A program made the position numbers and the translations under genes. Below, in pieces: positions 5,609 to 18,418 of a DNA stretch of 64,000 nt (position 1 is its first letter; each line of letters opens with the position of its first letter). The stretch is from NCBI RefSeq assembly GCF_000152805.1, contig NZ_CH902578.1:3459906-3523905 (forward strand), in the 5' to 3' direction. The notes under the pieces were generated by a model. It was not told the DNA's origin and did not search any database. It was given only the letters and a program-made list of their open reading frames with translations. The DNA comes from Maritimibacter alkaliphilus HTCC2654. GTDB lineage: Bacteria > Pseudomonadota > Alphaproteobacteria > Rhodobacterales > Rhodobacteraceae.

Positions 5609-6550
5609 TCAAGATTTCCCTAACGCGCGCGGATGGGCGCGATCATAGACCTCCATCAGCCGTTGGGTGTCGACCGCCGTATAGGCCTGCGTGGTGGACA
5701 GCGAGGCATGGCCGAGCAGCTCCTGTATCGCCCTGAGGTCGCCGCCCGCGTTCAGAAGATGGGTCGCGAAGCTGTGGCGCATCGCGTGCGGCGTGGCGGT
5801 CGCGGGCAGGCCCAGTTGCAGCCGTGCGCTTTCCATCGCCTTCTGCACAGTGCGCGGACCCAGCGCCTTGCCGCGCGCGCCATAGAACAGGGGCGTGTCG
5901 TCGGTCACCGGGTAGGGGCAGAGGCGGACGTAGCTCGCGACCGCATCGCGCGCGGCGGGCAGGACCGGGACCAGCCGCTCTTTCCCGCCCTTGCCGACGA
6001 TGCGCAGAACGTCGGGCAGGGGGTGGGCGCGTCCCGTCAGGCCCAATGCCTCGGAGATCCGCAATCCGCACCCGTAGAGCAGCGTGACGACGGCGGCGTC
6101 GCGGGCCCCGATCCAGCCGTCGCGGGCCTGAATGGCCGTGGTCGAGATGACCTCTTCCGCGGCCTCCTGCGACACGGGGCGGGGCAGTTTGGCGGTGAAC
6201 TTGGGCGCGCGGGTCGACAGGACGGTCGAGGCATCGAACCCGTCACGGTCCGACAGCCAGCGGTAAAAGCCCTTGACCGCCGACAGGGCGCGGGCGAGCG
6301 ACCGGGCCGACAGGCCGCCGGCGCGTTCCGATGCCATCCATGCGCGCATGTCGGAGATCGTGACGCTGGCGAGCGCAGTGCGCCCGTGCGAGGTGCCGTG
6401 GTGGGCCGACAGAAACGCAAGGAAGCTGACGACATCCTTGCGATAGGCTTCGATCGTATTGGCCGCCGCCCCGTCGAGCGCGCGCAGATGGTCGAGCCAA
6501 CCGGACAGCGCATCGCGCGCGCCATCGGATATGACGATCCCGTCAGGCAT
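5609..6550 (-). CDS. xerC: tyrosine recombinase XerC
   Basis: Site-specific recombinase expected to act with XerD at dif to resolve chromosome dimers. It has an N-terminal SAM-like core-binding domain (about residues 12-105) and a C-terminal catalytic domain. Visible catalytic residues are Arg164 (GLRISE), Lys187, His255-x-x-Arg258 (HAMRHSFATHLL), His281 (LLGHASLSTTQ) and Tyr290. At 313 residues it has normal length. It lies 71 bp downstream of the DUF484 gene on the same strand, the usual xerC/DUF484 arrangement. A 14-bp palindrome lies 16 bp before the start codon. Confidence 0.93.
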   Translation of the reverse strand: MPDGIVISDGARDALSGWLDHLRALDGAAANTIEAYRKDVVSFLAFLSAHHGTSHGRTALASVTISDMRAWMASERAGGLSARSLARALSAVKGFYRWLSDRDGFDASTVLSTRAPKFTAKLPRPVSQEAAEEVISTTAIQARDGWIGARDAAVVTLLYGCGLRISEALGLTGRAHPLPDVLRIVGKGGKERLVPVLPAARDAVASYVRLCPYPVTDDTPLFYGARGKALGPRTVQKAMESARLQLGLPATATPHAMRHSFATHLLNAGGDLRAIQELLGHASLSTTQAYTAVDTQRLMEVYDRAHPRALGKS

Positions 6551-6565
6551 TCAGTCTTGCGATCT

Positions 6566-6579
6566 TTTCACGCGTGAAA
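6566..6579. promoter_or_regulatory. 14-bp perfect palindrome upstream of xerC
   Basis: TTTCACGCGTGAAA is fully palindromic and lies between the DUF484 stop and the xerC start. Its 12-bp core TTCACGCGTGAA recurs exactly upstream of the MarR_EPS-Sat frame at 48614-48625. It is probably a transcription factor site; the factor is unknown. Confidence 0.45.
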
Positions 6580-6621
6580 CCGGCAGGTTCCGCGCGGTGC
6601 TTGGCCAATACGAACCTCGGC

Positions 6622-7329
6622 TCACGCCAGCCAGCGGCGCATCGTGCGTTCGAACACGCCGCCGAAATAGGTCAGAAGGTCGGTGCCCTGACCCGGCTTG
6701 AACTGGTGCGGGTCTTCGGCGCCCATGACGAGCATACCGGGCAGACGGCCTTCGCCGAGGTCGAGCCGGATCAGCGCCTCGGACCGAATCCAGTAGCCGG
6801 AGTCGCCGAACAGCTTTTTGTCCTGCTCCTGCACCTGGCGCAGCGTGACCGAGGGTCCGCCGTGTTCCCGCGGGCGTCCGATGTAGTCGTCCGAGAAGCC
6901 GCGCGGGGCGGTGACGAGCACGTCGCCCACCTTCTTCAGCGCAGGGTCCGCTTCGGTCATTTCGGTTTCAAGAACCAGCCGCAGGCAATCGACGCGCAGA
7001 ACATCCGCGATATCCGTGCCAAGCTCGTGCAGGAGCGTTTCGAAGTCGTCCTGTTCGAGAATGCGCAGGGTCGCCCGGTGGATGATGTTCATCCCCGCGA
7101 GGTTTTCATAGGCCGCCGCGATCACCGAGCGGTGCGTGTCCTCAAGGCGGTCGAGGCGGCTTTCCAGCCGTTCCATCGCGATCCCGCGCAGATCGACGAT
7201 ATTCGCGCCCATGGCACGTTCGTTCGCCGCGATCAGGGCGCGCATCATGTCGTGATCTTCGAGGATGACCTCTGGCTGGGTCAGAAGCTGCTCGCGCACG
7301 TCTTCGGTAATGGGAGCGTTGCTCGTCAT
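6622..7329 (-). CDS. DUF484 family protein (GAF-like)
   Basis: A 235-residue cytosolic protein with an N-terminal helical segment (PEVILEDHDMMRALI) and a GAF-like C-terminal domain, the DUF484 layout. Members commonly lie next to xerC, as here, but their biochemical role is not established. The ATG at 7329 begins MTSNAPITEDV. It is separated from the transaldolase gene upstream by an intrinsic terminator, so it probably has its own promoter in the roughly 80 bp before the start, and it may be co-transcribed with xerC. Confidence 0.85.
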   Translation of the reverse strand: MTSNAPITEDVREQLLTQPEVILEDHDMMRALIAANERAMGANIVDLRGIAMERLESRLDRLEDTHRSVIAAAYENLAGMNIIHRATLRILEQDDFETLLHELGTDIADVLRVDCLRLVLETEMTEADPALKKVGDVLVTAPRGFSDDYIGRPREHGGPSVTLRQVQEQDKKLFGDSGYWIRSEALIRLDLGEGRLPGMLVMGAEDPHQFKPGQGTDLLTYFGGVFERTMRRWLA

Positions 7330-7410
7330 TCGCCTGTCCTAACTGCCGTTTTTTCGTTTCTTGACAGTGAGTCTAGCAGGTCGCGAATCGGATTTCTGCA
7401 ACTTTTTTAC

Positions 7411-7440
7411 GAAAAACGGGACCATGAGGCCCCGTTTCAT
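7411..7440 (-). terminator. intrinsic terminator after the transaldolase gene
   Basis: Read on the minus strand, AAACGGGGCC-TCAT-GGTCCCGTTT forms a 10-bp stem with one mismatch followed by further Ts (TTC). It lies about 25 bp beyond the stop of the transaldolase gene. Confidence 0.75.
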
Positions 7441-7464
7441 CAGTTTTGTGACATTCGACCCGGT

Positions 7465-8118
7465 TCAGAGGATCTTGATGCCCGCCGCCTTGATGTCGGC
7501 GAGGAAGGCGTCGAGCCCCTTGTCGGTCAGCGGATGGTTCGCCATCGCCTTGATGACGCCCGGCGGTGCGGTCATCACGTCGGCACCGATCAACGCGGCG
7601 TCCTTCACGTGGTTGACGGTGCGGATCGAGGCGGCGAGGATTTGCGTCTCGTAGCCGTAGTTGTCATAGATCGTGCGGATTTCGGAGATCAGTTCCATGC
7701 CGTCCATGTTGATGTCGTCCAGCCGCCCGATGAAGGGCGAGATGAAGGTCGCGCCCGCCTTGGCAGCCAGAAGCGCCTGGTTGGCCGAGAAGCACAGCGT
7801 GACGTTCACCATGTGGCCGTCGTCGGTCAGCGCCTTGCAGGCTTTGAGCCCGTCGAGCGTGAGCGGCACCTTGACCGCGATGTTGCCCGCGATCTCGACA
7901 AGCTTGCGGCCCTCGGCGATCATCTGGTTCGCATCGGTCGCGGTCACCTCGGCAGAGACGGGGCCATCCACGATCTCGCAGATTTCTTTCGTCACCTCGA
8001 GGATGTCGCGCCCCGACTTCTTGATGAGCGAGGGGTTGGTGGTCACCCCGTCGAGCAGGCCGAGATCGTTGAGTTCCCGGATGGCATCGACGTCGGCGGT
8101 ATCGGCAAAGAATTTCAT
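7465..8118 (-). CDS. fsa: small transaldolase / fructose-6-phosphate aldolase family protein
   Basis: TIM-barrel class I aldolase of 217 residues. TTNPSLI follows the first strand and the Schiff-base lysine is Lys83 in AVKVPLT. The short length places it in the TalC/Fsa subfamily (transaldolase or fructose-6-phosphate aldolase), acting at the pentose phosphate/glycolysis junction. Sequence alone does not separate the two activities. The ATG at 8118 ([10 protein letters not shown]) is the conserved family start, and the longer open frame upstream was not used. It is divergent from priA. Confidence 0.9.
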
Positions 8119-10421: not shown

Positions 10422-10693
10422 ACCGCGTTCCTCTTCTCTGTTTCCGGAAACCTCGGGGGTGTGGGGGCATAACTCGTCTGTCGTTTGCAGCGTGCATTGT
10501 GAACCACCCCGAGGCTGCAGTCACCGTTATTTTTCTGTAGACCGAGAGGTTAGCCGGATAGCGCCAGAAAAGCACTTGGAACGTAGCTTTCGTTTGGCGG
10601 TATGGTGGACTAAGGTAGGAAGACGCTGCACGTCTCTAGCCGTGCCATCAGTGCTTTGGCGCCACAAGAAAGCAGAACAGAAGGTATGGGCGA
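10422..10693. other. priA to methyltransferase intergenic region, left end of the element
   Basis: 272 bp without a convincing gene. It holds the left 14-bp repeat (10456-10469) and then less GC-rich sequence that probably contains the left recombination half-site and the methyltransferase promoter. Reading the minus strand, the first bases (CACCCCCGAGGTTTC) resemble the host intergenic palindrome tails seen at 30070-30102. Confidence 0.5.
10456..10469 (+). repeat. left attachment-site repeat
   Basis: GGGGTGTGGGGGCA, identical to 18395-18408. Here it is followed by TAACTC, so the palindrome arm present at the right copy is missing, as expected for an insertion that split the hairpin. Confidence 0.6.
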
Positions 10694-11923
10694 ATGAACC
10701 AGCTCTCCATCTTTGATCAGGAGAAGTTCGCGGCGACGGCTGAGACCTTCATCGAAGACCTTCGGGCCTTCGATGACTTCGGCCAGCGCACAATGACTGA
10801 GACCGTGGAAGGTATCCCTTACCTGATCAACGAGTTCTGGACGGCAGGGCAACGCCAAGCTCACTCGATCCACGAGGTTTCTTACCGTGCCTGCTTCAAG
10901 GCACAGTTGCCCGAGTTCTTCATCAAGCGTCTCACTAAGCCGGGGGGCGTGGTATTCGACCCGTTCATGGGGCGGGGCACAACGCCCGTGCAGGCGGCGC
11001 TAATGGGCCGTCAGGCCTTTGGCAATGACATCAACCCGTTGTCGGTCCTACTGACCCGTCCCCGGCTGCGCCCGATCACTTTGCAGGCGGTTGCAACGGC
11101 GCTGCAAACCGTTGATTGGTCTCGGGGTGATATTGAGCGCGAAGACTTGCTCGCCTTCTACCACCCCGAAACGCTCAAGAAGCTGGAGGGCCTGCGCCTA
11201 TGGCTGGCTGAACGCGCGCCGCTTGGCAGCGAGAGCGTTGACCCGGTGGCCGACTGGATTCGGATGGTGGCGATCAATCGCCTCTCGGGTCATTCGCCGG
11301 GCTTCTTCTCTGGCCGGTCGATGCCGCCGAACCAAGCAGTGTCAGTCAAGGCACAACTCAAGATCAACGAGAAACTAGGCGTATCGCCGCCAGAGCGCGA
11401 CGTGGTTGCCGTGATACTCAAGAAGTCGAGAACGCTGCTTAAGAACGGCTGTGCCCCTAGCCAAGTGCGTTCAAGCCTTCACACCGGCGCGGCGTGGGAC
11501 TTGCGCGGCGTCGCTGATGCTTCGGTCGATCTAACTGTCACCTCACCCCCATTCCTCGACATCGTGCACTATGCCGCCGACAACTGGCTGCGCTGCTGGT
11601 TTGCAGGCATCGATCCGGAAACCGTCGCCATCGATATGCATCGCACCGAGGAGGCGTGGACCGCGATGGTGCACCGCGTCCTAGCGGAACAGGCCCGCAT
11701 CTTGCGCTCCGGTGGCTACGTCGCCTTCGAGGTGGGTGAGGTGCGTAATGGCAAGGTGCTGCTCGAGCGCCTCGTCTGGAAGGCGGCGGAGGGCTTACCG
11801 TTCAACCGGCTGGGCGTGATGGTGAACGACCAGGAGTTCACAAAAACTGCCAATTGCTGGGGCGTGGCCAACGGCGCGAAGGGCACGAATACGAACCGGA
11901 TCGTGCTCTTGCAACGTCACTAG
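10694..11923 (+). CDS. DNA methyltransferase (N4-cytosine/N6-adenine class)
   Basis: A 409-residue DNA aminomethyltransferase, presumably the modification enzyme of the restriction system next to it. The SAM-binding motif VFDPFMGRGTT is at residues 87-97 followed by NDINPLS, and the catalytic motif TSPPF is at 283-287. The SPPF form is more typical of N4-cytosine than N6-adenine enzymes. Motif I precedes motif IV by almost 190 residues, so the target-recognition region probably lies between them (alpha-like order). The ATG at 10694 has AAGG about 10 bp upstream. Its TAG shares bases with the stop of the convergent endonuclease gene. Target sequence unknown. Confidence 0.88.
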   Translation: MNQLSIFDQEKFAATAETFIEDLRAFDDFGQRTMTETVEGIPYLINEFWTAGQRQAHSIHEVSYRACFKAQLPEFFIKRLTKPGGVVFDPFMGRGTTPVQAALMGRQAFGNDINPLSVLLTRPRLRPITLQAVATALQTVDWSRGDIEREDLLAFYHPETLKKLEGLRLWLAERAPLGSESVDPVADWIRMVAINRLSGHSPGFFSGRSMPPNQAVSVKAQLKINEKLGVSPPERDVVAVILKKSRTLLKNGCAPSQVRSSLHTGAAWDLRGVADASVDLTVTSPPFLDIVHYAADNWLRCWFAGIDPETVAIDMHRTEEAWTAMVHRVLAEQARILRSGGYVAFEVGEVRNGKVLLERLVWKAAEGLPFNRLGVMVNDQEFTKTANCWGVANGAKGTNTNRIVLLQRH

Positions 11924-12516
11924 GGGGTCTGCCAGCTTGAATGATTTCCGCCCGCAAGTAGTTTGTGCGAGGTTGAAGCTTCCAGCCTGATATTCATCGG
12001 TGAAGCGGGATCGAGAAAGTCGAGTCTGAACCCCTCCACGATTGCCCCGCCATTCTGGTATAGCACCGTAGCGACAGCGTGTGCAGGCGGGTTTTCGACG
12101 ATGCCATCTTCGATGAGTCTGCGCATTTTTAGTGGCGAACTGGTCAGGACGCGTCGATTGCCGTCGTTCGGATTCCAGTCGGACGTCGCCTTGAACTCCA
12201 GAAAGTGCCGCTGCCCCTGAATTGTCAATACGGTGTCCGGGTAGCCTTTGCCGGGGGCAATTTCAATTCTGAATGCGTTTGTGAAAGCGGGCGCAATCTT
12301 GGTCAGAAATGCCGCAGCAGCCTTGTTGCCCAAAGATTGATTTGAGCCTGTGAAGTCTGGCATCTGCCAGCCGATGTAGCCTTGAGATTGAATGGCCTGA
12401 CTGATTGCCGCTTGCGCGGCGGCTGCAATGTTGGCGTCCCAAGAAGAAATTAGCGATCGAGCTTGCAGGCCTGAGTATTCCTGCAACTCCTCCAGATAGT
12501 CATCGAAACGCGGCAC
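11920..12516 (-). CDS. PD-(D/E)XK restriction endonuclease (predicted)
   Basis: A 198-residue protein with a nuclease core: Pro93-Asp94 in GYPD, a beta turn, then Glu107-Phe-Lys109 in FLEFKA, a textbook PD...ExK spacing. The N-terminal half is helical. It is convergent with the methyltransferase and shares the CTAG stop bases, so it is the likely restriction subunit. The start is a GTG at 12516 with AAGGAG at a good distance. I do not recognise a specific enzyme family or recognition sequence. Codon use is less GC-biased than the chromosome. Confidence 0.7.
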   Translation of the reverse strand: MPRFDDYLEELQEYSGLQARSLISSWDANIAAAAQAAISQAIQSQGYIGWQMPDFTGSNQSLGNKAAAAFLTKIAPAFTNAFRIEIAPGKGYPDTVLTIQGQRHFLEFKATSDWNPNDGNRRVLTSSPLKMRRLIEDGIVENPPAHAVATVLYQNGGAIVEGFRLDFLDPASPMNIRLEASTSHKLLAGGNHSSWQTP

Positions 12517-12582
12517 GGCCTGCTCCTTGATCCGTGCCAGAAATCATGGCACTTCCTCCTAGGTAGCAGGGAGAAGTGTTTG

Positions 12583-13065
12583 ATGGAAAGACGTTTTAAA
12601 CTCCGCTGGGATGAGGAAGAGCTTGCCCGCGCGTTCCGGGTGACACCCAAGGATGTCCGCGAATACCTGACTGATGGTCGGCGCGTCTCGTTCATCATCG
12701 AGCGGCGTCTAATGTGGGAGAATCCCGGCTGGAAGCTGGCCCCGTCAGAGGGCGCTGGCTATGACCTGCTCGATCCTGAGGGTGGTATGTGGGAGGTGCG
12801 TTCGATCACGCGGCAAGGTGTATACTTTAATCCAAGCAACCAAGTTGGGTCCGGTCGCGCTTTTAATGAAGAAGGTTTTCAAGCCAAACTGGCAGGCATT
12901 AAAGGCTTCATTCTCTCAGACATCGTTGGATTTCCAGAGGTAGATGTATTTGTTGTGCCTGTAGCAAACGTCCTACGCTGGCACCAAAATAGAGATCTAG
13001 GTGCTAATGCCAAAGTATCTCGGACGAAGTTCTTCAATCAACTCGCAGGGGATATTGATTTTTGA
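12583..13065 (+). CDS. hypothetical protein, possible second nuclease-like subunit of the restriction module
   Basis: A 160-residue protein divergent from the endonuclease, sharing a 66-bp promoter region with it. The ATG at 12583 follows GGGAGAAG at a usable spacing; the TTG at 12580 is a poorer choice. The N-terminal part (ELARAFRVTPKDVREYL) looks like a small helix-turn-helix. The middle GYDLLDPEGGMWEVRS has an acidic residue followed about 10 later by E-V-R, compatible with a degenerate PD-(D/E)XK core in which Lys is replaced by Arg. The C-terminus has alternating strands (VDVFVVPVANVLRW). GC content is low. Function unproven; it could be a control or accessory protein. Confidence 0.6.
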   Translation: MERRFKLRWDEEELARAFRVTPKDVREYLTDGRRVSFIIERRLMWENPGWKLAPSEGAGYDLLDPEGGMWEVRSITRQGVYFNPSNQVGSGRAFNEEGFQAKLAGIKGFILSDIVGFPEVDVFVVPVANVLRWHQNRDLGANAKVSRTKFFNQLAGDIDF

Positions 13066-13119
13066 ACTTTAGATGACCTGTTCAATGTGTCGACTGAACA
13101 ACATGAGAATACCAAAAGT

Positions 13120-13141
13120 CCGATGCGGTGTTCCGCATCGG
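13120..13141. terminator. perfect 9-bp hairpin between convergent genes
   Basis: CCGATGCGG-TGTT-CCGCATCGG. The minus-strand side continues ACTTTTGG, the plus side lacks a T run. It lies between the 160-residue gene (+) and the 119-residue gene (-) and may serve as a terminator, best for leftward transcription. Confidence 0.5.
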
Positions 13142-13175
13142 CCCTGATAGATCGCTCGATTGAAGTTGTGACGCC

Positions 13176-13535
13176 TTAGGCGCTGGTAACGGGGGTGTCG
13201 TTGGCGGCATCGCTGCCGCCAACGGGTTTCTTTTTCGCCAGTTTGGCTTCGGCGCGGGCGGCCATCTCCGCGTCAGCCTTCGCGGCTTTCAACAACCCTT
13301 CGTGAACGAGGAGCTGCAGTGCAACTAGACTGAGGGTGGGAACGAGTGCGCTGATGATCTGACTACGCAGCTTTTCATCCACATTCGGAAGAGCGGCGAG
13401 GGTCGTTTCGCCGATTTCCTTGCGGGCTGCGGCTTCTTTCTTGGCTCTTTTTGTGGCCACTTTGGCTCGTTGTCGATCGACACGCGCTTTCATACGTGCT
13501 GTCGAGGCATCATCTTTGTCGATATCTTCAAACAT
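13176..13535 (-). CDS. small charged hypothetical protein of the element
   Basis: A 119-residue protein with a strongly basic, coiled-coil-like N-terminus (MKARVDRQRAKVATKRAKK), a middle helix with hydrophobic residues and a lysine/alanine-rich C-terminus ending PVTSA. The ATG at 13535 has GGAGA upstream. It follows the relaxase remnant on the same strand, where mobilization accessory proteins are often encoded, but no family is recognised. The C-terminal codons contain an 11-bp inverted repeat. Confidence 0.6.
   Translation of the reverse strand: MFEDIDKDDASTARMKARVDRQRAKVATKRAKKEAAARKEIGETTLAALPNVDEKLRSQIISALVPTLSLVALQLLVHEGLLKAAKADAEMAARAEAKLAKKKPVGGSDAANDTPVTSA
13199..13235 (+). terminator. 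intrinsic terminator inside the 3' end of a convergent gene
   Basis: CGTTGGCGGCA-TCGC-TGCCGCCAACG is a perfect 11-bp stem with a 4-base loop, followed on the plus strand by GGTTTCTTTTT. It would stop rightward transcription from the 160-residue gene, yet it encodes the last residues of the 119-residue protein on the other strand. Confidence 0.55.
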
Positions 13536-13617
13536 CAGATGTCTCCGTGATTAAGTGTGTGAGCGATCTGGAGGGGAGTTGATGTCGTTTGAGATGGCCC
13601 CAAGATAATAAATGCTA

Positions 13618-14963
13618 TCACTCGTCGATTTCCTTGCCGCCTTTGCGCGAAGTCTCCGATTTCATGATTGTTTTCGCTGTCAGCTTTGCGTCCGCGAAGT
13701 CGTTCGCCTCGCCCCGGACCCGTTTTTCGATGATCGGCAGAGAAATGCGCGGGACAGCTGCATGCATCGCGTGCAGGAAGGCTTCGGCTTTTCGCGCCAG
13801 GCGTTCCGCGGCTGCCATCCGCTTGGCAGTCTCGTTCTCCGCAGTCCGTTTCGTAGAGGTGACAGAGACGCGAACACGCGCCCCAGTTTGCGGCGAATGC
13901 GCGCCGTCAGAGGCGCCTCGTCTTCTTTCGCCTCTCCGACTGTGCCCTGTGATGCGGCCACGTCGAGAAGGGTTTCGACCTGATTGTTGACGGCCTCTCG
14001 TTCATCCAACCGCGCGGCTTTCGCGTCTGCTGTCACCTGAGCCTTGCGAAAGGCAGATTCGCTTTCGGCGGTGGCGCGTTCCCGGGTCTCTATTTCTGCT
14101 TCGCGCTGCCGTTGCGCGGCCTCACGTCCGGCGAGCGCATGTTCGCGCTCCTTGAGGTCTTTCGCCCGTTTTCGAAGCTGTGCCGCTTCGGCTTCGCGCC
14201 AGACGTGACCGCATTGGTTCTCTCGATACTCGGGCTGGTCCCTGCCGCCTTCTTCGGCCCGGCGCCGCTCCTCTGACCGCCGCTGGCCGCGAGCCAAATT
14301 GAGAGGCGCAAAGTTTTCCGCGATATCGGTTTGTGCGTCTTCGTAGCTCTTGAGCAGCTCGTAGGCTGATGGCACCAGAAGGTGCTGCCAACCGCGCCGT
14401 TTCGAGGTCTTTTCAGCCCAAGGGGCGATCATCGCGTGGATATGGGGCGCGGTTTCGTCGAAATCCGCCCGCGCCGTTATCACCGCGTCGCCGAAGCGCT
14501 CCTTCAGCTACGCGATCGAAGTTTCGACGAAGGCGTCTTCCCTTGCCGACCGCGCCGCGTTGATGAGCAGCGAAGGGTCGTCGAACGCGTTGAACCACTC
14601 TTTGTTCGCGGTGATGATGACCTCGCGGAGCGGACCTTGTTTCGACGCCTTCCACGGATCCTGAGGCCCGCCATCGGCGCGGTCTGCCCAGTCTTTTTTG
14701 CGGCCGAGCGCCTCCAAGGCTTCCAGCTCTTCAGCGAAGTTCGACAGTCGTGCGAGTTCATACCTCTCATTGAACCGTTCGCGCCAATCGGGTTCGCCGA
14801 TCAGGTTTAGACGGTTCGCCATCGCCATGCCCGACTCGCAGTGCTTCGATCCTCGCCCCTTGCGCTCCTCGTGCAAGGCGTAGCCCGCGATGTCGTGGGG
14901 AAACATCGGCTTGAAGCGCAGCACGATGGGAAACTGGCGTTCGGAATTGGCGGGCTGTGCCAT
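13618..14963 (-). pseudogene. MobV/Pre-type plasmid mobilization relaxase, interrupted
   Basis: Reads as one relaxase of about 450 residues broken twice. The first part (14963-14511, MAQPANSERQF...) has its own AGGAGG site and ends at an amber codon TAG at 14510-14508. The same frame continues without a gap into DAVITARADFDETAPHIH, where DETAPHIH carries the HxH metal site of MobV-type proteins. A charged coiled coil (EREHALAGREAAQRQREAE) follows. Near 13855-13870 the coding pattern shifts by one base: the natural-looking C-terminus (KRMAAAERLARKAEAFLHA ... GGKEIDE) lies in the next frame and stops at 13618. Unless stop and shift are bypassed, no full relaxase is made. Confidence 0.72.
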
Positions 14964-14968
14964 GAGGG

Positions 14969-15042
14969 CCTCCTGATCTGGTCGATCAGGAGGTCGGTTC
15001 GTTTCCTCGAAGAGAGAAACGGACGCCTCCGCAGGTCTGCGG
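14969..15042. repeat. cluster of three inverted repeats upstream of the relaxase
   Basis: CCTCCTGATC-TGGTC-GATCAGGAGG (14969-14993) is a perfect 10-bp stem that includes the relaxase ribosome-binding site. CGTTTC...GAAACG spans 15000-15021 and CCGCAG-GT-CTGCGG spans 15029-15042. The cluster could be oriT, an operator, or an RNA hairpin masking the ribosome site. Confidence 0.5.
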
Positions 15043-15201
15043 GGGATCTACTCACTAGCAAAGTGACAGACGGCCCTTCGGTTCTTTCTGTCATTTTCGT
15101 TCGGCAGGGGAAACCCCTGCACCCCGGCACGGCTTGCGCGGCGCTCGAGATGCGCTCCGCCTCTCGAACTCTCCCGGAGCCTCCAGCCGGGCCAAGGGTC
15201 A

Positions 15202-15259
15202 TCGTTCCGCACTCCCCCTTGGATCCCCCTGCGCCCGCGGGAGCGTCGTTCCGCACTCC
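15202..15259. repeat. 14-bp direct repeat in the element's non-coding region
   Basis: TCGTTCCGCACTCC occurs at 15202-15215 and again at 15246-15259, 44 bp apart start to start, in a C-rich stretch. Role unknown; possibly protein-binding sites of the transfer origin. Confidence 0.5.
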
Positions 15260-15455
15260 TCCCCCGAACCCCCACCTGCTCGCGTTCCCCACGCGGGGTC
15301 GAGAGGCTTTCCCCCTCTCGACGCTCTCTCCCTGTGCGCTTGAGGCGCGAGGCGGGCGCAGTCGCGCGCGGCCCTGTCGTGACGCGCGCGCGGCTGACCC
15401 GCTTGGAGTTTAGGGCAGATGGGCGTGCGTCTTCTTTCAACGATTGGAGACGACA

Positions 15456-15944
15456 ATGCTCGACAATACCACCCAAAAACCGAAGCCAGTGAAACACTGG
15501 CAGACGGTGCTTCAGCCGGGGCACATCGTGATGTTCCGGTTTCCGGTGCGCCTGACCGATGACCCGCCGAAGATCCGACCGTGCCTTGTCCTCGACGTGG
15601 TCCGTCGCGGCGGCGAACACTTCGCGGTGCTCGCCTATAACACCAAGGTACAGACGAACGCCAACTGCGGTCATGAAGTCGCGGTCAGTGGCGAGACCCT
15701 GTTGAAAGTGCTGAAGCAGCGCAAGTCCACGCGCTTCGTCGGCGCGCGGCGGATCACCGTTTCGCTCGATCACCACGGCTTCGCATGCAATCGCGATGGG
15801 ACACCGATCCTCAGCGAATTGGTCGGCACCTCCGTCGATCGGATGCTCGCGGTCCGGGCCCACATCAACGCGATCGCGGACATCAAGAGGGAACGCGACG
15901 CCAAAACCGGTCGCCGGAAACCGAAGCAACTCTCCCTGTTCTGA
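15456..15944 (+). CDS. PemK/MazF-like protein
   Basis: A 162-residue protein. Residues about 19-50 contain the signature of the PemK/MazF (CcdB-like SH3) fold: QPGHIVMFRFP, then KIRPCLVLDV. In that family the fold is usually an mRNA interferase toxin. The C-terminal part (RRITVSLDHHGFA, then a basic tail) is longer than typical MazF. The ATG at 15456 has GGAG at a good spacing; the TTG at 15444 is less likely. No obvious antitoxin gene precedes it; a small helical protein follows. Toxin activity is inference. Confidence 0.5.
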   Translation: MLDNTTQKPKPVKHWQTVLQPGHIVMFRFPVRLTDDPPKIRPCLVLDVVRRGGEHFAVLAYNTKVQTNANCGHEVAVSGETLLKVLKQRKSTRFVGARRITVSLDHHGFACNRDGTPILSELVGTSVDRMLAVRAHINAIADIKRERDAKTGRRKPKQLSLF

Positions 15945-16021
15945 AGCTCACCCACTCGACCCGGCCCCTGTTCACGAGGGCCGGGATCGACCGGCTGCCT
16001 TCTGAAAGCAAAGGAACCAGA

Positions 16022-16417
16022 ATGAACACTCAGAAACACAAAATCGAATTCCACTACGAACCACCCGTTCGCGAGGTCGACAACCTCGAAGCGATGATCG
16101 CCGACGCAGCACGAGATGCCCGCGATGGTCTGCGTGGCCTGCATGCACTCAGCTCACGGGCGATCCGCGACAATGAGCTGAACATCAAAACGCTGACCGA
16201 CATCATCGAGCAAAAGCGCATCCTGACCGACCAGTTCCGTCACACGATCCGGCTGATCCTCGCCAATATCGCGCAATCGCATCCCGAGACCGACGAAGAT
16301 CCGGTCGCGGACACCGTGCGCCGAGATCTGCTCAGCGCGAGCTACCTCTCGCAGCGCGTCAGCGATCTGATCGAAGCCGAACAAATGATCGGGAAGAAGC
16401 GCCAGTCACGCAACTGA
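16022..16417 (+). CDS. hypothetical helical protein downstream of the PemK-like gene
   Basis: A 131-residue, mostly alpha-helical soluble protein (AMIADAARDARDGLRGLHAL, DIIEQKRILTDQFRHTIRLI). The ATG at 16022 follows AAAGGAACCAG. It is 77 bp after the PemK-like gene on the same strand and probably co-transcribed. It has no recognised domain, and an antitoxin role cannot be claimed. Confidence 0.6.
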   Translation: MNTQKHKIEFHYEPPVREVDNLEAMIADAARDARDGLRGLHALSSRAIRDNELNIKTLTDIIEQKRILTDQFRHTIRLILANIAQSHPETDEDPVADTVRRDLLSASYLSQRVSDLIEAEQMIGKKRQSRN

Positions 16418-16587
16418 CCGATCCAAAGAAACGCGGCTGTCTTTCCGCGTCAGGACGCGTCGGCACCATCCTTTCTGCTCCCCCAGCCGGTGCGTCCGAA
16501 CTTTTCTCCAAAAATTTTTTCACTCTGAGAAACGTTCCACCCATCTCCTGTCCAGTTGTGAGCCACATGGACGAAGGAGAACAAGAA

Positions 16588-16770
16588 ATGTCACGCGTTA
16601 CTTTGCAAGCCGCCAACCAAAATCCGGGCGGAGAAACGAACCTTGAGACCAACCTACTGGGGTTGATTGAACTGCTCGCGCAGGCGCAGGTGCGCGCCGA
16701 GACGCGCCCTTCCAGCGCATACGGTCGCGTGGCTGCTAACGACAACACCCCAATTTACAAGAAAGGCTGA
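16588..16770 (+). CDS. small hypothetical protein before the recombinase
   Basis: A 60-residue protein starting MSRVTLQAANQN at an ATG preceded by AAGGAGAACAAGA. It ends 3 bp before the recombinase start, so the two form an operon. It has one amphipathic helix (LETNLLGLIELLAQAQ) and a polar tail. It could be a small directionality or control factor by position only. Confidence 0.5.
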   Translation: MSRVTLQAANQNPGGETNLETNLLGLIELLAQAQVRAETRPSSAYGRVAANDNTPIYKKG

Positions 16771-16773
16771 ACC

Positions 16774-18390
16774 ATGACCAAGCGCGCTGTCATTTACGCC
16801 CGCTATTCGACTGGCAAGCAAAAGCAGACGTCCATCGCTGATCAGGTGGCGATGTGCGAGCGTCATTGCGAAAACGCCGGCTGGGAAGTTGTTGGGGTGT
16901 TTAGCGACAGCGAGAAGACTGGCAAACGCACCAAGCGGCCTGGACTTCAGGAAATGATTGAGATGTTGCGCTGCCGCAAAGCCGACGTCGTTCTTATCGA
17001 AGCCGTCGACCGCTTGCACCGCTCCGTGGTCAATGCACTGTCCTACTTCGAGATTACTACCTTCCGAGGGATCGAGCTTTACTCAGTCTCTGAAGGGCAA
17101 CAGGACTTTATCAAGCTCCTGTTCAATGCCCTTGGCGCTCAGTATTATTCGGATAGCGTCGCGGTTCACACGCGACGCGCTCTCGAGTCCCTCGTGCGTA
17201 AACAAGGACGAACGCACGGAATGGCCTTCGGCTATCGCAAAAAAGACGGCGAGACAGGTCTAAACCGCGAGCCGGACCCTGAAACCGCTTGGATCGTGAC
17301 GCGCATTTTTGAAGAAACCGCCGCAGGCCATTCGGCCGAACAGATTGCCCAGCGGCTCAATCAGGAAGGCATCCCAGCGCCAAAGGGTGGGGATTGGTAT
17401 ACATCGACCTTGCGCGGAAACAAGCAGCGCGGCGATGGCATCCTGCGCAATCGAATCTACATTGGCGAGGTCACCTACGGCGCTACGAAGTCCAGCTTCG
17501 ATCCCGAAACTGGCAAGAAATGGGTGGAAGCGACGCCGGACCAAGCGACCACCCTTCAGGTTGAGGATCTGCGGATCATTCCGCAGCCGCTCTGGGACGC
17601 AGCCCACACTCAACTCGAAGCCACCGCTCGTCAGGTCGAGACCATTGGAAATGCTTCAGCCGCGCATCGCACCAAATATCTCTTGTCCGGGCTCTTGGTT
17701 TGCGGCTGTTGCGGTCGCCCTTTCACAATGCAAGCTCAAGGGAAATATTATTGCCGGAACAAGAAGCTCTGTGGCAATCGGACTCCGGTTTTGCGGGAAG
17801 CAATTGAACAGCGTGTGTTCGCTAGCCTGCGCGACCTCTTCCTGACTCCGGAACTCGAAGCAAAGTTCGACGCAACGATCGCTGCTGAACGTCGGAAAAT
17901 GGCGTCCGCATCTGGATCGAACGAGCTTCGAACACTCATCCGTCGCAAAGCCGAAGCAGAAAAGGCCATCACGCAGATCCTGCGCGCGATCGAAAGCGGC
18001 ACGACATTCAAAAGCCTCCTTGAGCGAGCCCAATCCCTTGAGGACGAGATCGCCAGACTCGAACTCCAGATCAACAAGCTGGAGGCAGTGCGGCGCAGTG
18101 CTGAAGCTATGCCAACCCGAGCAGCACCCGTTTACGCCGCCGCTATAGAACGGATGGAGACGCTACTGGCCGATCCTGATTTTGTGCACCAGGCGAGTGG
18201 TCATTTGGCTCAACTGATCCGAAGTATCAGGCTCACGCCGGATCATACAGCGCAAGACGGAATGTCTGCCGAGGTTCATATGGACCTCGGCAGTTGGGTT
18301 TTGGGGGCCGGATATTCAGCAGAGATCGCCGCCCGGTTCTCAAACAATCCGCAAATGACGATTGAGGTGGGGGCAGCGCCCCCCACTTGA
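16774..18390 (+). CDS. serine recombinase (large serine integrase type)
   Basis: A 538-residue recombinase likely to integrate and excise the element. The N-terminal resolvase domain contains YARYST with the nucleophile Ser12, plus EAVDRLHRS. A recombinase domain follows (FGYRKKDGETG ... ILRNRIYIGEVTYG), then a zinc ribbon (CGCCGRPF ... YYCRNKKLCGN) and a coiled coil at about residues 370-450. This matches large serine integrases, which use short asymmetric sites. Its last codons (VGAAPPT) are encoded by a copy of the GTGGGGGCAGCGCC palindrome, and it ends next to the right attachment repeat. Confidence 0.92.
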   Translation: MTKRAVIYARYSTGKQKQTSIADQVAMCERHCENAGWEVVGVFSDSEKTGKRTKRPGLQEMIEMLRCRKADVVLIEAVDRLHRSVVNALSYFEITTFRGIELYSVSEGQQDFIKLLFNALGAQYYSDSVAVHTRRALESLVRKQGRTHGMAFGYRKKDGETGLNREPDPETAWIVTRIFEETAAGHSAEQIAQRLNQEGIPAPKGGDWYTSTLRGNKQRGDGILRNRIYIGEVTYGATKSSFDPETGKKWVEATPDQATTLQVEDLRIIPQPLWDAAHTQLEATARQVETIGNASAAHRTKYLLSGLLVCGCCGRPFTMQAQGKYYCRNKKLCGNRTPVLREAIEQRVFASLRDLFLTPELEAKFDATIAAERRKMASASGSNELRTLIRRKAEAEKAITQILRAIESGTTFKSLLERAQSLEDEIARLELQINKLEAVRRSAEAMPTRAAPVYAAAIERMETLLADPDFVHQASGHLAQLIRSIRLTPDHTAQDGMSAEVHMDLGSWVLGAGYSAEIAARFSNNPQMTIEVGAAPPT

Positions 18391-18418
18391 AGCAGGGGTG
18401 TGGGGGCAGCGCCCCCAC
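18367..18418. repeat. tandem palindromic repeat at the right end of the element
   Basis: GTGGGGGCAGCGCCCCCCAC (18367-18386) and GTGGGGGCAGCGCCCCCAC (18400-18418) are near-identical self-complementary units. The second looks like the host intergenic hairpin; the first lies in the recombinase 3' end. They could act as a terminator for both convergent genes. Confidence 0.7.
18395..18408 (+). repeat. right attachment-site repeat
   Basis: GGGGTGTGGGGGCA, identical to the left copy at 10456-10469. Here the palindrome is complete on the right (GCGCCCCCAC), so this junction retains the host right half. Confidence 0.6.

Follow-up and report, generated by a model that had tools for sequence, protein, structure and literature searches.

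The textbook type II restriction-modification system consists of one endonuclease and one methylase. Active-site residues are spaced D-X9-E-X-K in PvuII and D-X12-(D/E)-X-K in HincII. RsaI, from Rhodobacter blasticus 28/5 and available as a commercial enzyme, belongs to the same bacterial order as the organism studied here; M.RsaI modifies GTAC as N4-methylcytosine (PMC6256690) and R.RsaI cuts at GT/AC to leave blunt ends (PMC4357717). A different organization, with two different nuclease genes per locus, is found in the Type IIT or heteromeric systems BbvCI, Bpu10I, BspD6I and BslI; Type IIT enzymes, which have two different catalytic sites, are generally associated with asymmetric sites and two methyltransferases (PMC4081073).

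The locus described here lies in a 64,000-nt stretch of Maritimibacter alkaliphilus HTCC2654 DNA (NZ_CH902578.1, GCF_000152805.1, positions 3,459,906-3,523,905 of the forward strand), referred to below as the window. Like RsaI it encodes a small endonuclease, related to a phage gene product annotated as R.RsaI, and an amino-methyltransferase with an SPPF motif, but it adds a third gene; the identity and site proposed for the two RsaI-like genes draw on the phage homologue, PADLOC and the literature. With the Type IIT and heteromeric systems it shares the presence of two different nuclease genes, but it has one methyltransferase, and relatives can do without one of the nucleases and may carry an unrelated gene at that position.

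Results

A conserved three-gene module

A preliminary description of this DNA proposed a restriction-modification module of one methyltransferase and two nuclease-like proteins, and this was borne out: the three open reading frames were found where it had placed them (Table 1), with motif I preceding motif IV (SPPF) in the 409-aa methyltransferase, PD...EFK in the 198-aa protein and D...EVR in the 160-aa protein. The methyltransferase and 198-aa genes are convergent and their stop codons overlap by 4 bases (CTAG). The 198-aa reading frame has a GTG start codon with AAGGAG upstream, and the 160-aa reading frame starts with ATG; the 161 aa of the ORF list result from an in-frame TTG located one codon before it. 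The same arrangement was present in a Maritimibacter MAG (L001; 85-89% identity, being about 86, 86 and 89% for the methyltransferase, 198-aa and 160-aa proteins, respectively), in another Rhodobacteraceae MAG (L002; genes 88-91% identical, the 198-aa gene interrupted) and, far more diverged, in L013 (66, 35 and 48% identity in the same order), and because of this conservation the three reading frames are not attributable to chance. Codon comparison indicated purifying selection on all three genes, with a dN/dS of about 0.05 for the methyltransferase; for the 198-aa gene dN was 0.089 between the window and L001, where dS was saturated, and 0.06 for the first 124 codons against L002. The three genes are thus confirmed as real, intact and conserved. 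An inverted repeat in the divergent gap between the nuclease genes, mostly preserved in L001 and L002, is a possible operator through which the two may be co-ordinated.

Table 1. Features of the module and of the island that carries it (positions in the window)
Feature	Position	Strand	Evidence or remark
Island, about 8 kb	10456..18408		14-bp direct repeats; empty site in sister genomes
14-bp direct repeat GGGGTGTGGGGGCA	10456-10469, 18395-18408		Island ends
DNA methyltransferase, 409 aa	10694..11923	+	Pfam and PADLOC matches
Second, accessory nuclease-like protein, 198 aa	11920..12516	-	PD94-X12-E107-F-K109; weak predicted fold
Inverted repeat GTGCCA-N7-TGGCAC	12534..12552		Divergent gap between both nuclease genes
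Core restriction endonuclease, 160 aa	12583..13065	+	PADLOC REase_II, Syn19 homologue, AlphaFold2/Foldseek
Large serine recombinase, 538 aa	16774..18390	+	Pfam matches

The methyltransferase and the 160-aa endonuclease form an RsaI-like core

The methyltransferase, in which motif I (FDPFMGRGTT) is followed by motif IV (TSPPF), matched Pfam N6_N4_Mtase (E 4.8e-16) and, over its full length, PADLOC MTase_II PDLC03325 (E 1.2e-225), and is an enzyme of the N6/N4 type that likely produces m4C, by analogy with M.RsaI. The 198-aa protein had initially been taken for the endonuclease of the system and the 160-aa protein for an oddity; the reverse is the case, since the 160-aa protein falls in a known type II family (PADLOC REase_II PDLC03550, E 2.2e-98). 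Homologues of the latter were identified by tblastn of phage records in cyanophage Syn19 (E 1e-7) and its relatives. The Syn19 homologue was annotated by its depositors as the R.RsaI endonuclease, is directly followed by another methyltransferase gene and matched the same PADLOC model (E 1.6e-11). The active-site pattern of the 160-aa protein is D61-X9-E71-V-R73, and when twelve homologues with identities as low as 26% were aligned, D61 and E71 were invariant and position 73 was K or R. A confident AlphaFold2 model (pLDDT 88) gave PvuII as the top PDB match in Foldseek (E 1.8e-3, TM about 0.5), followed by NhoI and Eco15I. The likeness to these three enzymes lies in the predicted fold and the D-X9-E-X-K/R spacing; there is no sequence-level match to them, and the 160-aa protein has Arg where the catalytic Lys would stand, although distant homologues retain the Lys. 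Judged by its modelled fold and the order of its active-site residues, the 160-aa protein is a PvuII-fold PD-(D/E)XK endonuclease. By sequence homology and the linked methyltransferase gene, it forms with the methyltransferase a two-gene type II core of known kind, which is taken as RsaI-like because of the PADLOC models, the Syn19 annotation, the PvuII-like fold and the RsaI literature. A further homologue of the 160-aa type, with 45% identity, was found on a phage-like contig (L021, 921-1484), with no methyltransferase recognised within the 7.4 kb covered.

The site of the core is probably GTAC modified as N4-methylcytosine, an assignment based on the GenBank annotation of the phage homologue, the PADLOC class and the literature. 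Of all 256 tetramers, GTAC was the most depleted in the window (22 occurrences against 77 expected, O/E 0.29). As two relatives without the system were equally depleted, this depletion is lineage-wide, lends the assignment no support and was rejected as proof of specificity.

All loci with the module carry one methyltransferase gene of ordinary size. At another locus (L078, 4564-6476), which lacks a 160-aa gene, the partner of a methyltransferase sharing 57% identity with the window enzyme is a type II endonuclease of another kind, 227 aa long; the 227-aa enzyme matched PADLOC PDLC03511 (E 1.5e-27) and has the same D-X12-E-X-K spacing as the 198-aa protein. This pairing indicates that the methyltransferase family can protect against unrelated endonucleases and, together with more distant methyltransferases that sit on plasmids without a recognisable partner, that the family changes partners.

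The 198-aa protein has no described family

Profile searches, proposed in the preliminary description for both small proteins, placed the 160-aa protein in a described family and the 198-aa protein in none. The latter had no match in Pfam, NCBIfam, PADLOC or PDB sequences, and only a weak match to a DNA metabolism family in PHROGs (E 0.0047). Curated sequence libraries thus do not recognise this protein. The L013 protein, at 35% identity, keeps G63-N64-K65, Y92-P93-D94, E107, K109 and a C-terminal LEASTS motif. In a low-confidence model (mean pLDDT 54, built from three sequences) the order of secondary structure elements, comprising helices, three strands, a helix and two strands, corresponds to a PD-(D/E)XK core, and the acidic residues and lysine are predicted to lie on the second and third of the three strands. 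Foldseek with this model returned R.SwaI first (E 2.5e-4, the sole match below 0.001), then HincII (0.03-0.07), with EcoRV and NlaIV lower. The resemblance to SwaI and HincII, which extends to the D-X12-(D/E)-X-K spacing, is weak because of the quality of the model and the three sequences behind it; the 198-aa protein has no sequence match to these enzymes, falls outside their sequence family and comes without a methylase of its own.

The absence of a dedicated methylase would be explained if the 198-aa protein were a modification-dependent (Type IV-like) nuclease, or one acting at hemimethylated sites, that polices foreign or altered methylation. Such switches exist in small PD-(D/E)XK enzymes, the PvuII-like relatives of the core enzyme, NhoI and Eco15I, having been solved with methylated targets. 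This role is nevertheless unlikely: the gene always adjoins a methylase, and the nuclease would need to disregard what this methylase produces; the protein shows no modified-base reader domain; and the nearest predicted folds, SwaI and HincII, cut unmodified DNA. A repair or resolvase-like companion protecting the host or the island, of the Vsr or Holliday-junction type, would be in keeping with the PHROGs match and with weak viral-structure matches that include Holliday junction resolvases. Vsr solves the T:G problem of 5-methylcytosine methylases, and N4-methylcytosine creates no such problem. As the PDB matches of the model are led by sequence-specific restriction enzymes and loss of the gene is tolerated in relatives, a role of this kind appears improbable.

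The second nuclease-like gene is dispensable and exchangeable

The methyltransferase and 160-aa genes occurred together at eight independent loci, namely the window, L001, L002, L013, L008, L010, L018/L019 and L009. The 198-aa gene was present at only four of these (the window, L001, L002, where it is broken, and L013), beside both core genes in each case. The co-occurrence that the preliminary description proposed to survey thus holds in one direction: the 198-aa gene was never found without the 160-aa gene (4/4), and the 160-aa gene was often found without it. In L002 the 198-aa gene is split by two tandem identical insertion-sequence copies (6385-8053) and both partner genes are intact. L009, a close relative, contains the core pair only, the two genes lying 54 bases apart. 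In L008, L010 and L018/L019 the place of the 198-aa gene between both core genes is taken by a different PD-(D/E)XK-like gene, encoding a 180-aa protein with D66, E72 and K74 that is unrelated to the 198-aa protein by profile comparison. The distant locus L013 has both extras, the 198-aa gene and, behind the 160-aa gene, a 180-aa gene. A second nuclease-like gene is therefore present, or was once present, at seven of the eight loci, and it is not always the same gene. These observations show that the 198-aa gene is dispensable and strictly associated with the core; the protein trees were too poorly resolved to order its gain and loss.

Relatives of the 198-aa protein were absent from plasmid and phage collections and, beyond L013, from viral contigs. 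Among sampled genomes (296 of the taxonomic family, 385 of the class and 398 of the phylum) the 198-aa family was found only in the host and the L001 genome, and profile searches of the class and phylum sets returned the host itself only. The 198-aa gene has no other methylase as a companion, since all four of its loci hold the core genes and it was found in no genome without them. No homology is claimed between the 198-aa protein and the 180-aa, 160-aa or L078 227-aa proteins, hhalign probabilities being 1-5%; for the 227-aa enzyme 1 of 200 shuffled sequences scored higher, a relation indistinguishable from chance. In sequence comparisons the 198-aa and 180-aa proteins are two families without a close described relative.

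The distribution of the genes bears on the earlier suggestion that the 160-aa and 198-aa proteins are required subunits of one heteromeric endonuclease, an organization known from BbvCI and from BslI, an alpha2beta2 enzyme. The conserved divergent arrangement, the restriction of the 198-aa gene to loci with the 160-aa gene (4/4) and the retention of catalytic residues in both proteins would fit such an enzyme, and heteromers acting at palindromic sites, such as BslI, exist (PMC4081073). The proposal is contradicted, however, by the core pair of L009, by the insertional loss in L002 and by the unrelated gene in L008, L010 and L018/L019, where the 198-aa gene is absent. Cyanophage homologues of the 160-aa protein likewise pair with another methyltransferase and have no 198-aa gene. 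Two methyltransferases would be expected for a Type IIT system and one is present; the two nuclease genes do not always occur together, as they would in a Type IIT or BslI-like system, nor are there two or fused methyltransferases; and the models of the two proteins appear to resemble different fold subclasses. Because the core exists without the 198-aa gene, an obligate heteromer is given little credence. The broken gene in L002 and the missing gene in L009 could also be read as signs that the 198-aa gene is left over from some other restriction system and is carried along without a function here. This is very unlikely, as the gene has an unbroken reading frame and a low dN in both the window and L001, its catalytic residues are kept down to 35% identity, and it occupies the same slot at all of its loci.

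The system is carried by more than one mobile vehicle

In the window the module lies beside priA at the left end of the island; in sister genomes the priA junction is empty apart from about 0.1 kb, and the 160-aa gene was absent from seven other genomes of the genus. The serine recombinase matched Pfam Resolvase (E 1.7e-26), Recombinase (E 6.6e-23) and Zn_ribbon_recom (E 3.7e-8). The core pair with the 180-aa gene was found in lambda-like prophages, following the terminase gene in L008 (937-3245), preceding the portal gene in L010 (656-2964) and lying between the two in L019 (4047-6483). The presence of a recombinase island here and of lambda-like prophages in relatives indicates that the system is mobile by more than one vehicle. 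The island also contains a region (15444-15944) that weakly matches PemK/MazF-like toxins (E 0.0018, short of the Pfam cut-off), for which no antitoxin was identified, and a fragment (13680-14483) with a weak match to Mob_Pre, a relaxase-type family (E 0.05), which is perhaps a broken mobilisation gene.

Discussion

The account preferred for this locus, to which an even chance is given, is that of an RsaI-type type II system with an optional, independent 198-aa nuclease acting under the same methylation. The methyltransferase would protect a short palindromic site, probably GTAC via N4-methylcytosine, and the 160-aa PvuII-fold enzyme would cut the unmodified site as a homodimer. The 198-aa protein would be a separately folding PD-(D/E)XK endonuclease similar in class to the blunt cutters SwaI and HincII, most likely acting alone and blocked by the methylation of its neighbour. 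It would thus add another, unrelated cutter to a system guarded by a single methylase and would not be a required subunit. A lone endonuclease would be lethal unless a neighbour protects, and no other methylase travels along; the site of the 198-aa protein would therefore be the same as, or contain, the site methylated by its neighbour. The 180-aa protein is presumed to be functionally equivalent to the 198-aa protein. A broader scheme is put forward more tentatively, as possible but doubtful, in which a slot beside the RsaI-type pair is filled by either the 198-aa or the 180-aa protein, so that one methylase guards two independent cutters through shared N4-methylcytosine.

The core of this system is of a known kind, and the extra, exchangeable nuclease is new. 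The 198-aa and 180-aa families could be assayed at once, since the methylase likely to protect against them adjoins. If the broader scheme is true, a phage or inhibitor escaping one enzyme would still be cut by the other. Repeated gain, loss or exchange of a second, unrelated nuclease by a known pair would illustrate how such systems keep one step ahead of escaping phages, and also how new endonucleases originate under cover of an existing methylase.
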